Assembly (NCBI GenBank): GCA_902506565.1
Contig: LR732703.1
Coordinates: forward strand, 4,554,863 to 4,618,862
Length of the DNA stretch: 64,000 bases
Reading direction: 5' to 3'
Origin: Burkholderiales bacterium 8X
GTDB lineage: Bacteria; Pseudomonadota; Gammaproteobacteria; Burkholderiales; Burkholderiaceae_C
Part shown: piece by piece, positions 21,552 through 28,111 of the stretch
Position numbering within the stretch: position 1 is the first letter of the stretch
How the letters are laid out: the number at the start of each line of letters is the position of its first letter
Notes under the pieces: model-generated
What the model was told of the DNA's origin: nothing
What the model saw: only the letters and a program-made list of their open reading frames with translations
The model's database searches: none
Translations under genes and position numbers: made by a program

Positions 21552-22385
21552 TCAGCGCCCATCGCCGCTGCCCGGTGCCGCCATCTTGCGATGCTGTTCC
21601 GCCAGCACCGAGGACGGCGTGACGTTGGCCAAGGCGGCCTGCATCTTGTTCTTCCAGCCAGCGACCACGTCGCCCTCGCCGTGCATCATGGCCTCGAAGC
21701 CGATGCGCGCGACCTCGGCCGGATCGGCCTTGCTGTCGTCCTGTCCGACCTGCGTGTCCAACATGTCGGCCCGCTTGAAGAACTCGGTGTCGGTCGGCCC
21801 CGGCATCAGGCAGCTGACCGTCACGCCGCTGTCCTTGAGTTCGTTGCGCAGCGCGAACGAGAACGAATCCAGGAAGGCCTTGGTGCCGTTGTAGACCGCC
21901 TGGAAACTGCCGGGCATGAAGCCCGCGATCGATCCGGTGATGAGGATGCGTCCCTGCCCGCGCGACCGCATGTCGCGGCCAACCTTCTGGATCAGGTAGA
22001 TCGTGCCGGTGATGTTGGTGTCGACCACCAGCCGCGCCTCGGCGAAGTCCTGGTCGAGAAAGCCGTGGCCGAGGCCGCGGCCGGCATTGGCGAGCAACGC
22101 ATCGACATGGCGGCGCTCGATGGCTGCGTAGAGCCGGTCCACGCCCTCGACGGTCGAGAGATCCGCCTGGACCGAACGCACTTCGACGCCCTCGCCGCGA
22201 AGCGCTGCGGCGGCCGTCTCGATCTCGGGTTCGTCGGCCGCAATCAACAGGTCGTATCCCTTGCGGGCGCAGCAGCGCGCAAGTTCGAAGCCGATGCCGC
22301 TCGAGGCGCCGGTGACGATGGCGAGTGGTCGACGGCCGCCGGCGGCCTGGTTGGAAGCGAGGTCTTGATCGGTATCGGTGGCCAT
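21552..22385 (-). CDS. SDR family oxidoreductase
   Basis: 277 residues. Classical short-chain dehydrogenase: NAD(P)-binding 'VTGASSGIGFELARCC' near 25, 'LLANAGRGLGH' near 95, catalytic Ser in 'ILITGSIAGFMPG' and Tyr/Lys in 'AVYNGTKAFLDSF'. The C-terminus is a charged tail. AGGAG upstream supports the start. The substrate cannot be told. Monocistronic and divergent from ku. Confidence 0.88.
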   Translation of the reverse strand: MATDTDQDLASNQAAGGRRPLAIVTGASSGIGFELARCCARKGYDLLIAADEPEIETAAAALRGEGVEVRSVQADLSTVEGVDRLYAAIERRHVDALLANAGRGLGHGFLDQDFAEARLVVDTNITGTIYLIQKVGRDMRSRGQGRILITGSIAGFMPGSFQAVYNGTKAFLDSFSFALRNELKDSGVTVSCLMPGPTDTEFFKRADMLDTQVGQDDSKADPAEVARIGFEAMMHGEGDVVAGWKNKMQAALANVTPSSVLAEQHRKMAAPGSGDGR

Positions 22386-22731
22386 TGAAACTGCTCCTGG
22401 GATGAAAGAAAACGGATGAGTCCGGCACCGCTCGCCGCGTGAAGCCGGACCCCTTCGAAACGAGGATCGAACGGTGATGCACGCGAGTTCACAGCCGATG
22501 GCGCAAGGTGTTGCCGGAATCGGCCTACCTCAGCAGCAGGAGTCGGTGTGCGGTGCGGCGGTGCGGCGTTGCCGCGATGCGCCGAAACCACGGCAGGCAG
22601 CGAGCGCGGCGCCGGCCTCTTTCCTGCCGGCGCAAACAATGGCAAGCTGCCCAAGGCAGAGTCCGCTTGCTTCCCGCAGTCCCCCGGCATCCCGCCGGAT
22701 GGCCGTCCATACCAACGCATCGAGGAACCCC
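22386..22731. other. Divergent intergenic region, no gene seen
   Basis: About 345 bases between the SDR gene (minus) and ku (plus). Both promoters should lie here, but I find no convincing -35/-10 pair. The short open frames inside are Arg/Ala-rich shadows without ribosome binding sites. Confidence 0.5.
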
Positions 22732-23682
22732 ATGGCCGCACGTTCGATCGCCTCGCTCTCGCTTTCCTTCGGCCTGGTGTCGATCCCGGTAAGGCTTTAT
22801 TCGGCCACCGAGAGTTCGGCCACGGTGCGCTTCAACCTGCTCGCCAAGGATGGCTCGCGCGTGAAGCAGCAATACGTGTCCGAGCGCGACCCGACGGTGG
22901 TGGTGCCGCGTTCCGAGATGGTGAAGGGCTACGAGTTCGAGAAGGACCGCTACGTGATCTTCCAGCCGGACGAACTCAAGGCGCTCGAAGAAGGCGCAAG
23001 CCATGCGATCGAGATCGTGACCTTCATCCCGGAGAAGGCGGTCGATCCGATCTACTTCGACAAGGCCTATTTCCTTGCGCCCGACAAGCGCGGCGGCAAG
23101 CCCTACAACCTGCTCAAGGAAGCGATGCTTCAAAGCGGGAGATGCGCGCTCGCCAAGTGGGCCTGGAAGTCGAAGCAGTACGTGGTGCAGGTGCGTGCCG
23201 GCGAAGACGGCCTGGTGCTCCAGCAATTGCTGTACGCGGACGAGGTGCGTTCTCTCAAGGACCTGGAGATCGAGAAACTCACGCCGTCACCGGCCGAACT
23301 CAAGCTGGCACTGCAGCTCATCGACCAGATCTCCGAAGACAGCTACGAGCCGACGATGTTCGAGGACGAGGAGAAGAAGCGCGTGCTGGCCGCGATCGAC
23401 GCCAAGATCGAGGGCAAGCACATCGTTGCCGTGGAACATGCCGAGGATTCGCCGACCGCCGAGGTCATCGACCTGGCCGAGATGCTGCGTGCCAGCCTCT
23501 CGCGCACGCCGGCCAAGGCAGCCGCGAAGAAGGTGGCCGCACCCGCCAAGGCAGCGCCCGCCAAGGCGGCAGGCGGCACGGTGAGCCCGCTGGTCGCGAC
23601 CGAGCGCAAGGGCGCCAGGCGGGCGCCGAAGATCGAGGAAGCCAGCCCGCAACCGGTGCGCGCACGAGCTGCCAAGAAGTGA
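22732..23682 (+). CDS. ku: Non-homologous end-joining protein Ku
   Basis: 316 residues from the ATG at 22732, with GAGGA upstream. The Ku core is clear: 'SIASLSLSFGLVSIPVRLYSA', 'MVKGYEFEKDRYVIFQPDEL', 'VDPIYFDKAYFLAPDKRGGK' and 'AKWAWKSKQYVVQVRAGEDG'. Bacterial Ku forms a homodimeric ring on double-strand ends and recruits the ligase LigD. After residue 260 comes a Lys/Ala/Pro tail ('AKAAAKKVAAPAKAAPAKAA' and onward), as in other proteobacterial Ku proteins, likely for DNA binding. No ligD in the window. The next gene starts 2 bases after the stop and is probably co-transcribed. Confidence 0.95.
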   Translation: MAARSIASLSLSFGLVSIPVRLYSATESSATVRFNLLAKDGSRVKQQYVSERDPTVVVPRSEMVKGYEFEKDRYVIFQPDELKALEEGASHAIEIVTFIPEKAVDPIYFDKAYFLAPDKRGGKPYNLLKEAMLQSGRCALAKWAWKSKQYVVQVRAGEDGLVLQQLLYADEVRSLKDLEIEKLTPSPAELKLALQLIDQISEDSYEPTMFEDEEKKRVLAAIDAKIEGKHIVAVEHAEDSPTAEVIDLAEMLRASLSRTPAKAAAKKVAAPAKAAPAKAAGGTVSPLVATERKGARRAPKIEEASPQPVRARAAKK

Positions 23683-23683
23683 C

Positions 23684-24550
23684 GTGAGCGAGGAGCTGCC
23701 CGAAGGCGCGCACAGCCTGCGCAGCGTGCAGGCGATGCTGGGGCTGTCCCGGCGCACCATCGAAGGCCTGATCGAACTCGGCTTCGTCAAGCCGGCGCGC
23801 GGTGCGCGCAATGCCTGGCGCTTTTCTTTCAGGGACATCGTGCTGCTGCGGACGGCCCACGAACTGCAGGCCGCCCACATCTCGTCCCGCAAGATCCTGC
23901 GTGCGCTCGCCCGCCTCAAGGCCACGCTGCCCGAGGAAATGCCGCTGGCCGGCCTTCGCATCAGCGCGGTCGGCGACACCATCGCGGTGCGCGAGGCGAA
24001 TGCGCCGTCCCGATGGGCGGCCGAGTCCGGACAGATGCTGATCGACTTCGAGGTCGGCGCCTCGCCCGGGTCGGTGTTCGCCTTTCGATCGACGCAAGCC
24101 GATCCTCCCCCTGGCGCCGCGGCCGAGGCCGAGCCGGGGCCGCGGGATGCCCGAGCGCTTTTCTTGCTGGGCGAAGCACTCGAAAGCACCGATGCCGAGG
24201 CCGCCGAGCAGGCCTATCGCGACGCCCTGGCGGCAGATCCGCACCTGCGAGACGCGTATCTCAATCTCGGCGCGATGTGGTGCGAAGCCGGCCGTGCGGG
24301 GGAGGCTGCATCCCTCTACGAGCAGGCCGTGAGCCATTGCCCCGACGAGCCGCTCCTCCACTACAACCGCGCAGTCGCGCTCGAGGATGCCGGCGACGAC
24401 CAGGCGGCCATCGCCAGCTACGAGGCCAGCCTCCGGCTCGACCCGCGCCTGGCCGATGCGCATCACAACGTGGCGGCGCTCTACGACCGGCTCGGCAAGC
24501 CGCAGGCGGCGCTGCGGCACTTCAGCGCCTTGCGACGACTCCAGCGCTAG
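23684..24550 (+). CDS. MerR-like HTH protein with TPR repeats
   Basis: 288 residues from a GTG one base after the ku stop. The N-terminus (about 11-80) is a MerR-type winged helix: 'SLRSVQAMLGLSRRTIEGLI', 'ARNAWRFSFRDIVLLRTAHE'. The C-terminal half (about 155-285) contains at least three TPR units ('AEQAYRDALAADPHLRDAYL', 'LHYNRAVALEDAGDDQAAIA', 'ADAHHNVAALYDRLGKPQAA'). The middle segment is of unknown fold. Position directly behind ku suggests a regulator or adaptor of the repair locus; this HTH-TPR pairing is uncommon and its role is not known to me. Confidence 0.8.
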   Translation: MSEELPEGAHSLRSVQAMLGLSRRTIEGLIELGFVKPARGARNAWRFSFRDIVLLRTAHELQAAHISSRKILRALARLKATLPEEMPLAGLRISAVGDTIAVREANAPSRWAAESGQMLIDFEVGASPGSVFAFRSTQADPPPGAAAEAEPGPRDARALFLLGEALESTDAEAAEQAYRDALAADPHLRDAYLNLGAMWCEAGRAGEAASLYEQAVSHCPDEPLLHYNRAVALEDAGDDQAAIASYEASLRLDPRLADAHHNVAALYDRLGKPQAALRHFSALRRLQR

Positions 24551-24621
24551 CGGCGGCTGCAGTTACAGTTCAGCCGACGAACGGCGAGCCGCCATCCGGA
24601 GGCTCGAACCAGGGAGGCGCA

Positions 24622-25524
24622 ATGCGTCGGACAACAAGATTCTTCTACGGCCGGACCGTGGGCGCCGGCGTTTGCCTTGCCATCGCCGCCGCATGCACGG
24701 CGAGCGCCTCGGTCCGGCTGCCGCTCGGAGGCGCCACCGCGGGCTCCGAGCACGATGCGGCCTTCCAGATCGAGCGGCCCTGCGGCACTGCGCGATTCAC
24801 CACGTCGCTCACCGTGCGAATCCCGCCGGGCTTCGAGGTGCTCGGTGCAGAGGCGCCGAAGGGCTGGCGGGTCGACATCCTCCGGATCGGCCGCGGCAAG
24901 GTGCGCTGGACCGCGGTGGCGCCCGAGGCGGTGCTGGTGGGCAACGAGCGCGGCGAGTTCGTGCTGCGCGGCCGCGTCATGCGGACACCCGGCACGCTGT
25001 ACTTCCACGCACTCCAGGGCTGCGACATCGGCAGCATCGAGTGGTCGGAGGTGCCGGGCAACGTGGCGGGCGAGAAGCTGGTGCGGCCGGCGCCGAGGCT
25101 GGACGTGCTGCCGGCCGGCGTCGCCCCGGTGGACATCCGGGACGGCTGGGTCCGGCCCACGGTGCCGGGCCAGCACACCACCGCCGCCTACATGAAGCTC
25201 AGCGCGCCGATGGGCAGCCGGCTGGTCGGCATCGACTCGCCGGTGGCCGGCGAGACGGGCATCTACATCGTGCGGATCGAAGGCGACACCTTGCAGCGCC
25301 GCCCGGTGGAAGGCGGCTTTCCGCTGCCGGCGCGGCGTTCGATCGAGCTTCGGCCGGGCAGCTACCACGTGATGCTGTTCGACTTGAAGAAACCGCTGCC
25401 GGCCGGATCGAGCGTGCCGATGACCTTCCACTTCGTCGATGCGAAAGGGACCTCGACCTCGGCGCAGGTGGTGCTGCCGGTCGGCATGCCGGCGCCCAAG
25501 CCTGCGCCGCGCCGATCGTCCTGA
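24622..25524 (+). CDS. YcnI (DUF1775) - PCuAC copper-protein fusion
   Basis: 300 residues, exported (signal peptide to about residue 30). Residues about 31-150 match the YcnI/DUF1775 domain ('AAFQIERPCGTARFTTSLTV', 'IPPGFEVLGAEAPKGW'). Residues about 165-285 match the PCuAC (DUF461) copper chaperone ('TTAAYMKLSAPMGSRLVGI', 'FPLPARRSIELRPGSYHVML'). Both families deliver copper in the periplasm. Key ligands look lost: the YcnI mature N-terminal His is absent ('SASVRL' replaces 'AHV'), and in PCuAC the 'H...M...M' segment reads 'GIYIVRIEGDTLQRR', leaving only His-x-Met of 'YHVML'. AGGGAGG precedes the ATG. Confidence 0.75.
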   Translation: MRRTTRFFYGRTVGAGVCLAIAAACTASASVRLPLGGATAGSEHDAAFQIERPCGTARFTTSLTVRIPPGFEVLGAEAPKGWRVDILRIGRGKVRWTAVAPEAVLVGNERGEFVLRGRVMRTPGTLYFHALQGCDIGSIEWSEVPGNVAGEKLVRPAPRLDVLPAGVAPVDIRDGWVRPTVPGQHTTAAYMKLSAPMGSRLVGIDSPVAGETGIYIVRIEGDTLQRRPVEGGFPLPARRSIELRPGSYHVMLFDLKKPLPAGSSVPMTFHFVDAKGTSTSAQVVLPVGMPAPKPAPRRSS

Positions 25525-25549
25525 ACGGCCTCGGCGTGTCGAAGGATGA

Positions 25550-27790
25550 TCAGCCGGCCGCTTCGCCCGGCCTGCTCGCGTCGCTCGGCCTCGCCAACGG
25601 CAGCTCGACCGTGAACGACACCCGGCCCGCATCGTCGTAGCCGTAGTGGATGCGGCCCTGGTGGCCCTTCACGATCTCGGCGGCGATGTAGAGCCCGAGG
25701 CCGAGACCGTTCGGATTGCGAGAGTTGCCCATCGAGCCGGCCTTGAGCGGCTCGAACAGCACCTTGACCACCTCGGGCGGGATCGGCTCCGAGAAGTTGG
25801 AGACCACCAGCACCGCGTGGCCGTCGCTGCCTTCTTCGAGCGCCAGCGCGATCGGCTCGCCCGGCTGGCCATGATGGCGGGCGTTGCTGATCAGGTTGCC
25901 GACTACCTGTGCGATCCGGTCGGCGTCGATCGGCACCAGGAGGCTGGGCGCCAGACGCAGCTCGATCGACAAGTCGGGATGCGCCATCTTGGCGTCGTCG
26001 ACCAGGCTGTGTACCAGCGCGGCCAGGTCATGGTCCGCGATCTGCAAGCCGAGCCCCAGGCCGCCATGCAAGCGGCTCATGTCGAGCACCTGGGTGATGA
26101 GCCGGCCCATGCGTCCGGTCGAGGCGGCGATGCGCTGCCCGACCCGGGCGCTGGCATTGCCCTGCTCCAGGATGCGGGCCGCCATGCTGATGGTCTGGAG
26201 CGGATCGCGCAGGTCGTGCCCGAGCACCGCCAGGAGCCGCGCCCGGGCCCGCTCCATCTCGCCGGCGCGCGCAGCGGTGGCACGGCCGAGCTCGTCGAGC
26301 ATCTGCCGCGCGATCGAGAGATCGGCTTCGTCCCACGGAACCGCGGTGCCGGCGACTTCCTGCCGCCATTCGGCGAAGGAACCGCCCGGCGTGAGCCGCG
26401 TGCCGAGCGGGCCGACGCGCACCGCCTTGGCCAGCGGCCCGCTCCAGGTGACGGTATGGGTCTGCTCGGCCCGAAGGAAGACCAGCGCGCCGTGCCCCAT
26501 CCGGTCGAAGCGCAGTGCCAGCACGCCGCAAAAGGGATCGAGTTCGCGCCGGAGCGGCTCGGGCAATTCGTCGCGGCGCCAGCTCGACAGCAGGTCGTCC
26601 GGCTGCTCGTCGATCCATTTCAGGAGCGCCCGCGCCGCCGGCGGGCCCAGCTCGCCTTGCATCGTCTGCTTGCCCGAATGCGCGAACAGCAGGGCGTCGT
26701 GCGCGATCACCTGCTGCATCTCGGAGCCGAGCGCGCCGACCTCGCGGGCCGCGTCCTCGCTCTGCAGCACCACGTCGACCAGCCGGGTGCGAAGGTCGGC
26801 CGCGGCCGAACGACGCGCGGCATGAGCCCGCTCCAACGCGGTCTGCACCGAGGACGAGACCATCTGCGACAGCACGTCGCAGGCCATCCGGATCGCGAAC
26901 GGCACGCGGTGGGGCGTCCGGTGATGGCAGGCGATCAGGCCCCACAGCCGGCCGCCGACCACGATCGACACGCTCATCGAGGCCGCCACGCCGATGTTCT
27001 TCAGGTACTCGATGTGGATCGGCGACACGCTTCGCAGCACCGCGTGGCTCAGGTCGAGCGGCGTGGCGTCGCCCGGGAGCGCCTCGATCGGCACCTGGGC
27101 GTCGCCGACATCGGCGATCAAGCGCAGCGTATTGATGATGTAGAGACGCCGCGCCTGCGCCGGGATGTCGGCGGCGGGAAAGCGGCGATGAAGGTACGGG
27201 TCGAGCTCGGGAACCACCGTCTCTGCAACCACCTCGCCGCTGTCGTCGTGATGGAAGCGATAGGCCATCACGCGATCGAAGCCGGTGATCTCGCGCACGG
27301 TGCGCACCGCCTCTTCGAGCATGGGACCGATGTCGCGGCGGCCGCGCAGCCGCCCCATGCCGCGGTGCGCCAGCAGCGCGAAGCTGGCAAGCGCATCCTG
27401 CCCGGGTGCGCGGCGCTCGTATTCGATGATCACCCGGCCGTCGAAGGCGTGCAGCACCACGTCGTGGGTGGGTTCGCCGGGCGCCTCGCCGATTTCGAGC
27501 TCCAGCGCCACCGGCGGCACCTCTTCTTCGTCGGCGGCATCGCGGCACATGCCTTCGAACGCCAGGGCCAGCGCGTCGCCGCCGCCGAGTTCGCTGGCGC
27601 TTGGCATCGAGCCGAGCGGCGGCAGCGAGCCGAGCAGGTTGCGAGCATCGCGGCTCGCATGAGTGAGTACGCCCTTCGCATCGAAGGCGAGCAGCACGCC
27701 GTGCGGCTGGATGAAGCCGGGAATGTGGATCGGCTCCTGGTCGCAGTTGTCGAGGTTGACGCTCGACAAGCTGATCGGCGACTGACTCAT
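25550..27790 (-). CDS. bphP: Bacteriophytochrome histidine kinase
   Basis: 746 residues from the ATG at 27790. The PAS domain has the biliverdin-attachment Cys at 16 ('NLDNCDQEPIHIPGFIQPHG'). The GAF domain has 'FPAADIPAQARRLYI' (usual PASDIP with Ser changed to Ala) and 'IACHHRTPHRVPF'. The PHY domain follows (about 330-495). The HisKA His is H525 in 'LGHDLRDPLQTISMA', and the ATPase region has 'NLISNARHHG' and 'GLGLGLYIAAEIV'. It is a red/far-red light sensor kinase. No heme oxygenase or response regulator gene is adjacent, so both must be elsewhere. Confidence 0.93.
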   Translation of the reverse strand: MSQSPISLSSVNLDNCDQEPIHIPGFIQPHGVLLAFDAKGVLTHASRDARNLLGSLPPLGSMPSASELGGGDALALAFEGMCRDAADEEEVPPVALELEIGEAPGEPTHDVVLHAFDGRVIIEYERRAPGQDALASFALLAHRGMGRLRGRRDIGPMLEEAVRTVREITGFDRVMAYRFHHDDSGEVVAETVVPELDPYLHRRFPAADIPAQARRLYIINTLRLIADVGDAQVPIEALPGDATPLDLSHAVLRSVSPIHIEYLKNIGVAASMSVSIVVGGRLWGLIACHHRTPHRVPFAIRMACDVLSQMVSSSVQTALERAHAARRSAAADLRTRLVDVVLQSEDAAREVGALGSEMQQVIAHDALLFAHSGKQTMQGELGPPAARALLKWIDEQPDDLLSSWRRDELPEPLRRELDPFCGVLALRFDRMGHGALVFLRAEQTHTVTWSGPLAKAVRVGPLGTRLTPGGSFAEWRQEVAGTAVPWDEADLSIARQMLDELGRATAARAGEMERARARLLAVLGHDLRDPLQTISMAARILEQGNASARVGQRIAASTGRMGRLITQVLDMSRLHGGLGLGLQIADHDLAALVHSLVDDAKMAHPDLSIELRLAPSLLVPIDADRIAQVVGNLISNARHHGQPGEPIALALEEGSDGHAVLVVSNFSEPIPPEVVKVLFEPLKAGSMGNSRNPNGLGLGLYIAAEIVKGHQGRIHYGYDDAGRVSFTVELPLARPSDASRPGEAAG

Positions 27791-28111
27791 GCCTTCGCCG
27801 CCGGCATCTTCTTCATTGAACCTTGCATCGTCTCGGTGGAACGCGAATTGATCGACAACCCTTGAGCGTACCCGTTTCGGCTGTCGTCGCAACTCCGATT
27901 CGCGGGCAGACCTCGTTCGCGACAGGCCCGTCGCGGCTGGCTTCCGAGGTCGCCGAGGAGCACGGTGTCGGGCACCGGCCGATCTGCCGCGTCGGCCATG
28001 TCCTTATCGACGGTGCGGCGGGGTCCGGCCTGCGATGCGCGGCAGGCGGGGAATGCTGGCGCGACGCGCCGGAGCCGACCGGCATCGAGCGATTCGAAAA
28101 GGAAGACAGAC
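27791..28111. other. Divergent intergenic region, no gene seen
   Basis: About 320 bases between the bacteriophytochrome gene and the DUF3606 gene. Open frames crossing it are Arg-rich and unlike proteins. Promoters for both flanking genes are expected but none stands out. Confidence 0.5.

Follow-up and report, generated by a model that had tools for sequence, protein, structure and literature searches.

A YcnI-PCuAC fusion protein with degenerate copper sites in both halves, and its intact paralogue

The gene at positions 24622-25524 (+ strand) of the window, by which we mean the whole 64,000-nucleotide stretch of DNA that was analyzed, encodes a 300-aa fusion of a YcnI (DUF1775) domain and a PCuAC domain with degenerate copper sites, as judged from the ORF, its translation and Pfam. 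The 300-codon ORF is intact, starts with ATG and is preceded by a GGGAGG ribosome site, and its GC3 is 0.91, compared with 0.82-0.88 in five genes of the same genome (those encoding Ku, MerR-TPR, the phytochrome kinase, the paralogue and the paralogue's receptor, all described below). The protein, hereafter P0001, begins with a predicted signal peptide read from the sequence (aa 1-29; 24622-24708), in which A-S-A precedes Ser30 and whose predicted cleavage falls where the related fusions have their A|H junction. The DUF1775 domain (aa 37-162; 24730-25107) and the PCuAC domain (aa 172-275; 25135-25446), both delimited by Pfam and structural superposition, score 50 bits against PF07987 and 90.9 bits against PF04314, above the curated cut-offs of 25 and 29.4, respectively. 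The coordinates of the ORF and the fusion of two copper-family domains, as given in a preliminary description of this DNA, are borne out. A Cys also lies five residues before Ser30 (Cys25), in a context resembling a weak lipobox, and the second degenerate fusion presented below has one four residues before residue 1; since 13 of the 108 intact fusions of our alignment likewise have a Cys somewhere within aligned positions 22-29, the idea of a lipoprotein was dropped and the Cys rejected as evidence for it.

Upstream of the fusion gene, on the same strand, lie a Ku gene (22732-23682; Pfam Ku) and, 71 bp before the fusion, a MerR-TPR gene (23684-24550; Pfam MerR_1 and TPR), and a bacteriophytochrome histidine kinase gene (25550-27892, - strand; Pfam PAS_2, GAF, PHY, HisKA and HATPase_c) is convergent with it. 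The listed Ku ORF (22474-23682) appears to be over-extended, its likely start being the ATG at codon 87 (22732); among 29 other loci, 20 have an ORF in which the Ku match starts between residues 80 and 90. Neither promoter-like sites (0.3 expected by chance) nor terminator-like sites (2.3 expected) were found in 22300-28100, and the nearest recognised neighbours of the fusion (Ku, MerR-TPR and the phytochrome kinase) include no TonB-dependent receptor. A relative of MerR-TPR is present in 53 of the 101 genomes of the genus, Variovorax, and Ku adjoins MerR-TPR at all 30 fetched loci, that is, in the window and at 29 relatives. The fusion follows this pair in the window only, being found at 0 of the 29 relatives within the fetched flank of ~1-1.5 kb, and the gene order thus makes it most likely that a duplicate was inserted downstream of two conserved genes that have no link to copper.

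Our alignment comprises P0001, 108 further full-length fusions (82 from the genus, 25 from the family and one from the genome of P0001) and the second degenerate fusion, L122p; P0001 was counted apart from the 108 and L122p also stands outside them, making 109 other fusions in total. The 25 family fusions were taken from a 399-genome family sample, among the matches listed; in that run, DUF1775 matches of ~103 bits or more were treated as single-domain proteins, PCuAC being present in the same ORF in 0 of the 30 best high-scoring family matches, and one lower match (L191) was also read. Before counting, we dropped L122 and L194, which are copies of the degenerate gene represented as L122p, the sequences with the PCuAC part only (L123, L124, L179, L182, L191 and L193) or the DUF1775 part only (L172, L173, L181 and L189), the repeats L126 (of L049) and L141 (of L052), and L195, which was without match.

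In the YcnI half of P0001, both the alignment and the superposition place Ser30 (24709-24711) where the N-terminal brace His is expected; mature residue 1 is His in 107/107 other fusions with a residue there, L115 being left out of this count because its N terminus is missing at a contig end. The G-H-x-C motif is replaced by E-R-P-C (aa 51-54; 24772-24783), with Arg52 (24775-24777) in a column that is His in all 108 other fusions. In the PCuAC half, the former first ligand set (aa 215-226; 25264-25299) has changed from His215 to Tyr, Met217 to Val, Met219 to Ile, Met224 to Leu and Met226 to Arg, and the original residues occur in 108, 107, 104, 108 and 108 of the 108 fusions, respectively. The primary copper site, HXnMX21/22HXM, is broken at Tyr215 and Arg226, and what remains of it is the HxM half, His249-Val-Met251 (25366-25374), whose His and Met columns are each invariant in the other fusions (108/108). 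In our reading, the replacement of three of the four lost Met with Val, Ile or Leu, and of one with Arg, is mostly what a beta strand lacking sulphur ligands would accommodate. Finally, the C-terminal tail (aa 291-300; 25492-25521) is devoid of any His, as compared with an HxH within the last 25 residues of 107/108 other fusions; L105 is the single row without this HxH and also the single row with Ile at 217.

Outside these positions, much is retained. Trp141 (25042-25044), at the position of YcnI Trp137, is shared with all 108 other fusions, as are Cys54 (24781-24783) and Cys134 (25021-25023), which are present in L122p as well and probably form a disulfide within the DUF1775 half. At least 95% of the 108 fusions agree in 83 columns, nine of them ligand-type and 74 other; P0001 keeps 2/9 of the former versus 58/74 of the latter (Fisher p 0.0014), with the reservation that the nine ligand columns are not independent events, as several lie on one strand. 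The replacement of the YcnI N-terminal His and of the first His/Met set of PCuAC, both asserted in the preliminary description, is hence upheld and sharpened by comparison with relatives and known structures; the further assertion that only His-x-Met is left is right as to His249-Val-Met251 and misses Trp141. The retention of this Trp, the loss of the C-terminal HxH and the intact paralogue in the same genome are additions to that description. P0001 has also gained His at 44, 129, 185 and 270, positions that are His in 0, 0, 0 and 1 of the 108 other fusions, respectively. A PmoF-like HX10H brace was considered and rejected, given that the His of P0001 lie at 44, 129, 185, 249 and 270 only and that none are 11 apart.

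The alignment also bears on the ordinary fusions themselves. Their near-C-terminal HxH, found in 107/108 (e.g., in L054), together with the His-bearing tail of three alphaproteobacterial fusions, suggests from sequence conservation that the tail is a conserved third copper-binding element. Moreover, by our own reading of the alignment, the invariant GHxC His of ordinary fusions lies within about one residue of the place of YcnI Glu50, so that these proteins may use a two-histidine brace, made of residue 1 and the GHxC His, rather than a monohistidine brace.

An AlphaFold2 model of P0001, built on 40 sequences, has a mean pLDDT of 85.6, with values below 50 for aa 1-26. Its YcnI half matches 8um6, 7me6 and 7mek with Z scores of 18.5-19.0 and rmsd of 1.4-1.5 over 124-125 residues, aa 30-164 superposing on YcnI 27-154, and its PCuAC half matches AccA (9yah) with a Z score of 19.3 and rmsd of 1.8 over 119 residues, and Thermus PCuAC (2K6W) with a Z score of 15.3. 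Both beta-sandwich folds, that of YcnI and the cupredoxin-like fold of PCuAC, are accordingly predicted to be kept.

The genome of this soil bacterium holds two DUF1775 and two PCuAC matches, which correspond to the window fusion and to one second fusion (L054; C1:2184243-2185076), 48-50% identical to P0001. In this paralogue the ligands are intact, with His at mature residue 1, GHAC, VHEMKMDGDTMRMR, YHLM and a C-terminal HKH. A TonB-dependent receptor adjoins it, and a similar receptor was present in the DNA fetched around 71 of 79 loci that we obtained by scanning with the fusion alignment, a few of which are PCuAC only. A DUF2946/CruR regulator was sought upstream of the paralogue's receptor, and two ORFs there gave no Pfam match.

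We then asked how widely P0001 itself occurs. At the cut-offs used, no orthologue was found in 399 family genomes (E <= 1e-80), 369 class genomes (E <= 1e-45) or an 84,980-species set, the family and class runs giving nothing closer than intact fusions; within the genus, a search of all 101 genomes at E <= 1e-95 yielded nothing besides P0001 itself, and the top other hit of a 100-genome run at E <= 1e-3 reached 53% identity. A single-sequence contig scan relied on six exact 8-residue patterns and hit 46 stretches, none of them a relative, these cut-offs and patterns being such that diverged orthologues could be missed. The alignment-based contig scan, from which the 79 loci were kept, gave best identities of 53-54%, and among plasmid records 112 had a match, all under 60% identical, the ten listed being 26-28% identical. 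Three alphaproteobacterial fusions taken from these plasmid records (Methylobacterium, Sinorhizobium and Paracoccus) have retained the residue-1 His, HGC and the His/Met set of PCuAC, and their tails contain His. To date, one genome is known to carry a P0001-type gene.

Among the 109 other full-length fusions examined, one is likewise degenerate in both halves. This protein of 288 aa, L122p, is encoded in another Variovorax genome, G077 (L122:1106-1972; G077:C51), and in the fusion alignment it keeps 48/74 of the other conserved columns and 0/9 of the ligand columns, having no Trp, no HxM and no HxH tail. It is the sole DUF1775 match of G077, and falls below the Pfam cut-off; a further PCuAC domain of that genome, standing apart from the fusion (L123), carries the usual His/Met residues. 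L122p is 34% identical to P0001 and has a branch length of 5.6; its placement in the tree is unsure and it is not joined with P0001 there. Nearby genes encode, among others, a DUF899 protein and a glutathione S-transferase.

What the losses would mean for copper can be gauged from the characterized proteins. In YcnI, His27 at the N terminus and Glu50 are reported to bind Cu(II), next to which lies Trp137 (PMC8424229), and a Trp137Phe strain is described as growing like the deletion strain (PMC12362106), a copper-bound structure of YcnI W137F nonetheless being available (8um6). According to PMC8424229, DUF1775-PCuAC fusions are already known in proteobacteria, the His is present in 10,393 of 10,647 DUF1775 sequences, the Glu is absent from many proteobacterial members, and the legend of Figure 5 names His-less classes, including one with "only the Trp conserved"; a minority state with loss confined to the YcnI half is thus already known. 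In AccA, as reported in PMC13006917, single changes of primary ligands to Ala move the Cu(I) log KD from -16.5 to between -13.5 and -13.9, change of more than one primary residue produces a deletion-like phenotype, and deletion of the tail moves the Cu(II) log KD from -12.4 to -9.5 with no effect in cells; the same source describes methanotroph PCuACs that are without the primary motif and use HX10H instead. In the mostly open literature on YcnI/DUF1775 and PCuAC, no fusion with both sites lost was found among the matches listed. Since P0001 lacks two primary ligands, the tail and the brace His, high-affinity binding of Cu(I) or Cu(II) at its known sites is, by analogy with these proteins, unlikely, and since Trp141, His249 and Met251 remain, weak copper binding would be possible.

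Based on these observations, we favor, with a probability of roughly 0.6, a model in which P0001 is a duplicated Variovorax chaperone fusion that has lost high-affinity copper binding and kept its fold, perhaps as an apo-like partner or regulator. An ordinary YcnI-PCuAC copper-chaperone fusion of Variovorax would have been duplicated, and the copy would have settled behind Ku-MerR/TPR, away from the copper locus of the TonB receptor. It would then have diverged fast, retaining the signal peptide, both beta-sandwich folds and the cysteine pair, and losing copper binding at the three expected places, namely the N-terminal His site, HXnMX21/22HXM and the C-terminal HxH. Such a protein would no longer usefully carry Cu(I) or Cu(II). 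In the periplasm it might serve as a modulator, a structural protein or an apo-like partner of the chaperone's contacts (the receptor, the paralogue or a cuproenzyme subunit). The new role put forward in the preliminary description is plausible in view of the intact ORF, the predicted folds and the graded conservation set out below, and might be structural or regulatory.

The main rival is slow decay, i.e., that P0001 is a redundant duplicate under relaxed selection, still folding, functionless and on its way to becoming a pseudogene; we consider this rather unlikely, and a recent onset of decay would also be compatible with the data. In the phylogeny, P0001 groups with its own paralogue and relatives within an unresolved cluster (support 95/58), in keeping with the favored model; its position there is uncertain (SH-aLRT 58), the length and the deviating composition of its row both being flagged by the tree tool. 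Its branch of 1.5 versus 0.3 for the paralogue, or about five times as long, lends some weight to decay. Decay would also agree with the occurrence of a P0001-type gene in this genome only, among 101 of the genus, with the lack of an orthologue in the family, class and 84,980-species sets at the cut-offs used, with the presence of an intact paralogue in the genome, and with the failure to find a promoter-like or terminator-like site in 22300-28100. However, the 300-codon ORF is intact, with a ribosome site and high GC3, and the losses are concentrated at the ligands. Moreover, P0001 agrees with the residues common to its nearest relatives at 58/74, 35/55, 23/50 and 8/26 positions in four column classes of decreasing conservation, a gradient that selection for the fold would leave. 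When the paralogue was evolved neutrally in simulation to 50% identity, which is the divergence of P0001, just 19 of 500 ORFs stayed intact, with a mean of 3.2 stops. Taken together, the gradient and the simulation point to selection on the P0001 sequence during at least part of its history.

Alternatively, P0001 may be a re-wired metal protein, in which His249/Met251, Trp141 and the gained His form a weaker or different site, as in a copper sensor or a Zn/Ni protein. The retention of His249-x-Met251 and Trp141 and the four His that are nearly absent elsewhere would suit such a site, and the methanotroph PCuACs with HX10H in place of the primary motif, as described in PMC13006917, offer a precedent. 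However, the five His of P0001 include no HX10H spacing, Arg226 puts a positive charge at a former Met ligand, and the tail His are lost as well, so that we hold this explanation to be distinctly unlikely. That the substitutions are harmless and P0001 is still an ordinary copper chaperone, as passing both Pfam cut-offs and keeping half of the PCuAC tetrad might suggest, is very improbable in the face of the missing tail and two of four primary ligands, the residue-1 His of 107/107 other fusions that P0001 lacks, and the deletion-like phenotype of AccA with more than one primary residue mutated (PMC13006917).

Beyond the favored model of a single duplicated and copper-free fusion, one could imagine that fusions repeatedly yield metal-free "pseudo-chaperones", apo-mimics that would retain the folds of the two domains and tune copper uptake or cuproenzyme assembly by protein contacts alone, with P0001 and the G077 protein as two separate cases within a single genus; we deem this generalization unlikely. 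If P0001 is copper-free and yet used, the partner-binding role of YcnI-PCuAC proteins would be separable from metal carriage, and the intact and degenerate copies within one cell would constitute a natural pair for testing which contacts matter. In addition, annotation by Pfam match only ("copper chaperone PCu(A)C") can mislead on function.

P0001 thus stands beside several known systems. With L054 and the 107 further intact fusions it has in common the domain order, the signal peptide, Cys54/Cys134, Trp141 and the HxM, whereas these fusions keep the brace His, the GHxC His, the 215-226 His/Met set and the HxH (107/108), all of which P0001 is without. L122p resembles it in that the ligands are gone in both halves and the tail is lost, and differs in having lost the Trp and the HxM too and in having other neighbours. 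Bacillus subtilis YcnI (7MEK and 7ME6; Damle 2021, PMC8424229) shares the DUF1775 fold and the Trp with P0001, in which its His27 is replaced by Ser30. Likewise, Neisseria gonorrhoeae AccA (9YAH, PMC13006917) and Thermus PCuAC (2K6W) share the PCuAC fold and the HxM, whereas the first His and the Met of their motif are Tyr and Arg in P0001, which also lacks the His-rich tail.
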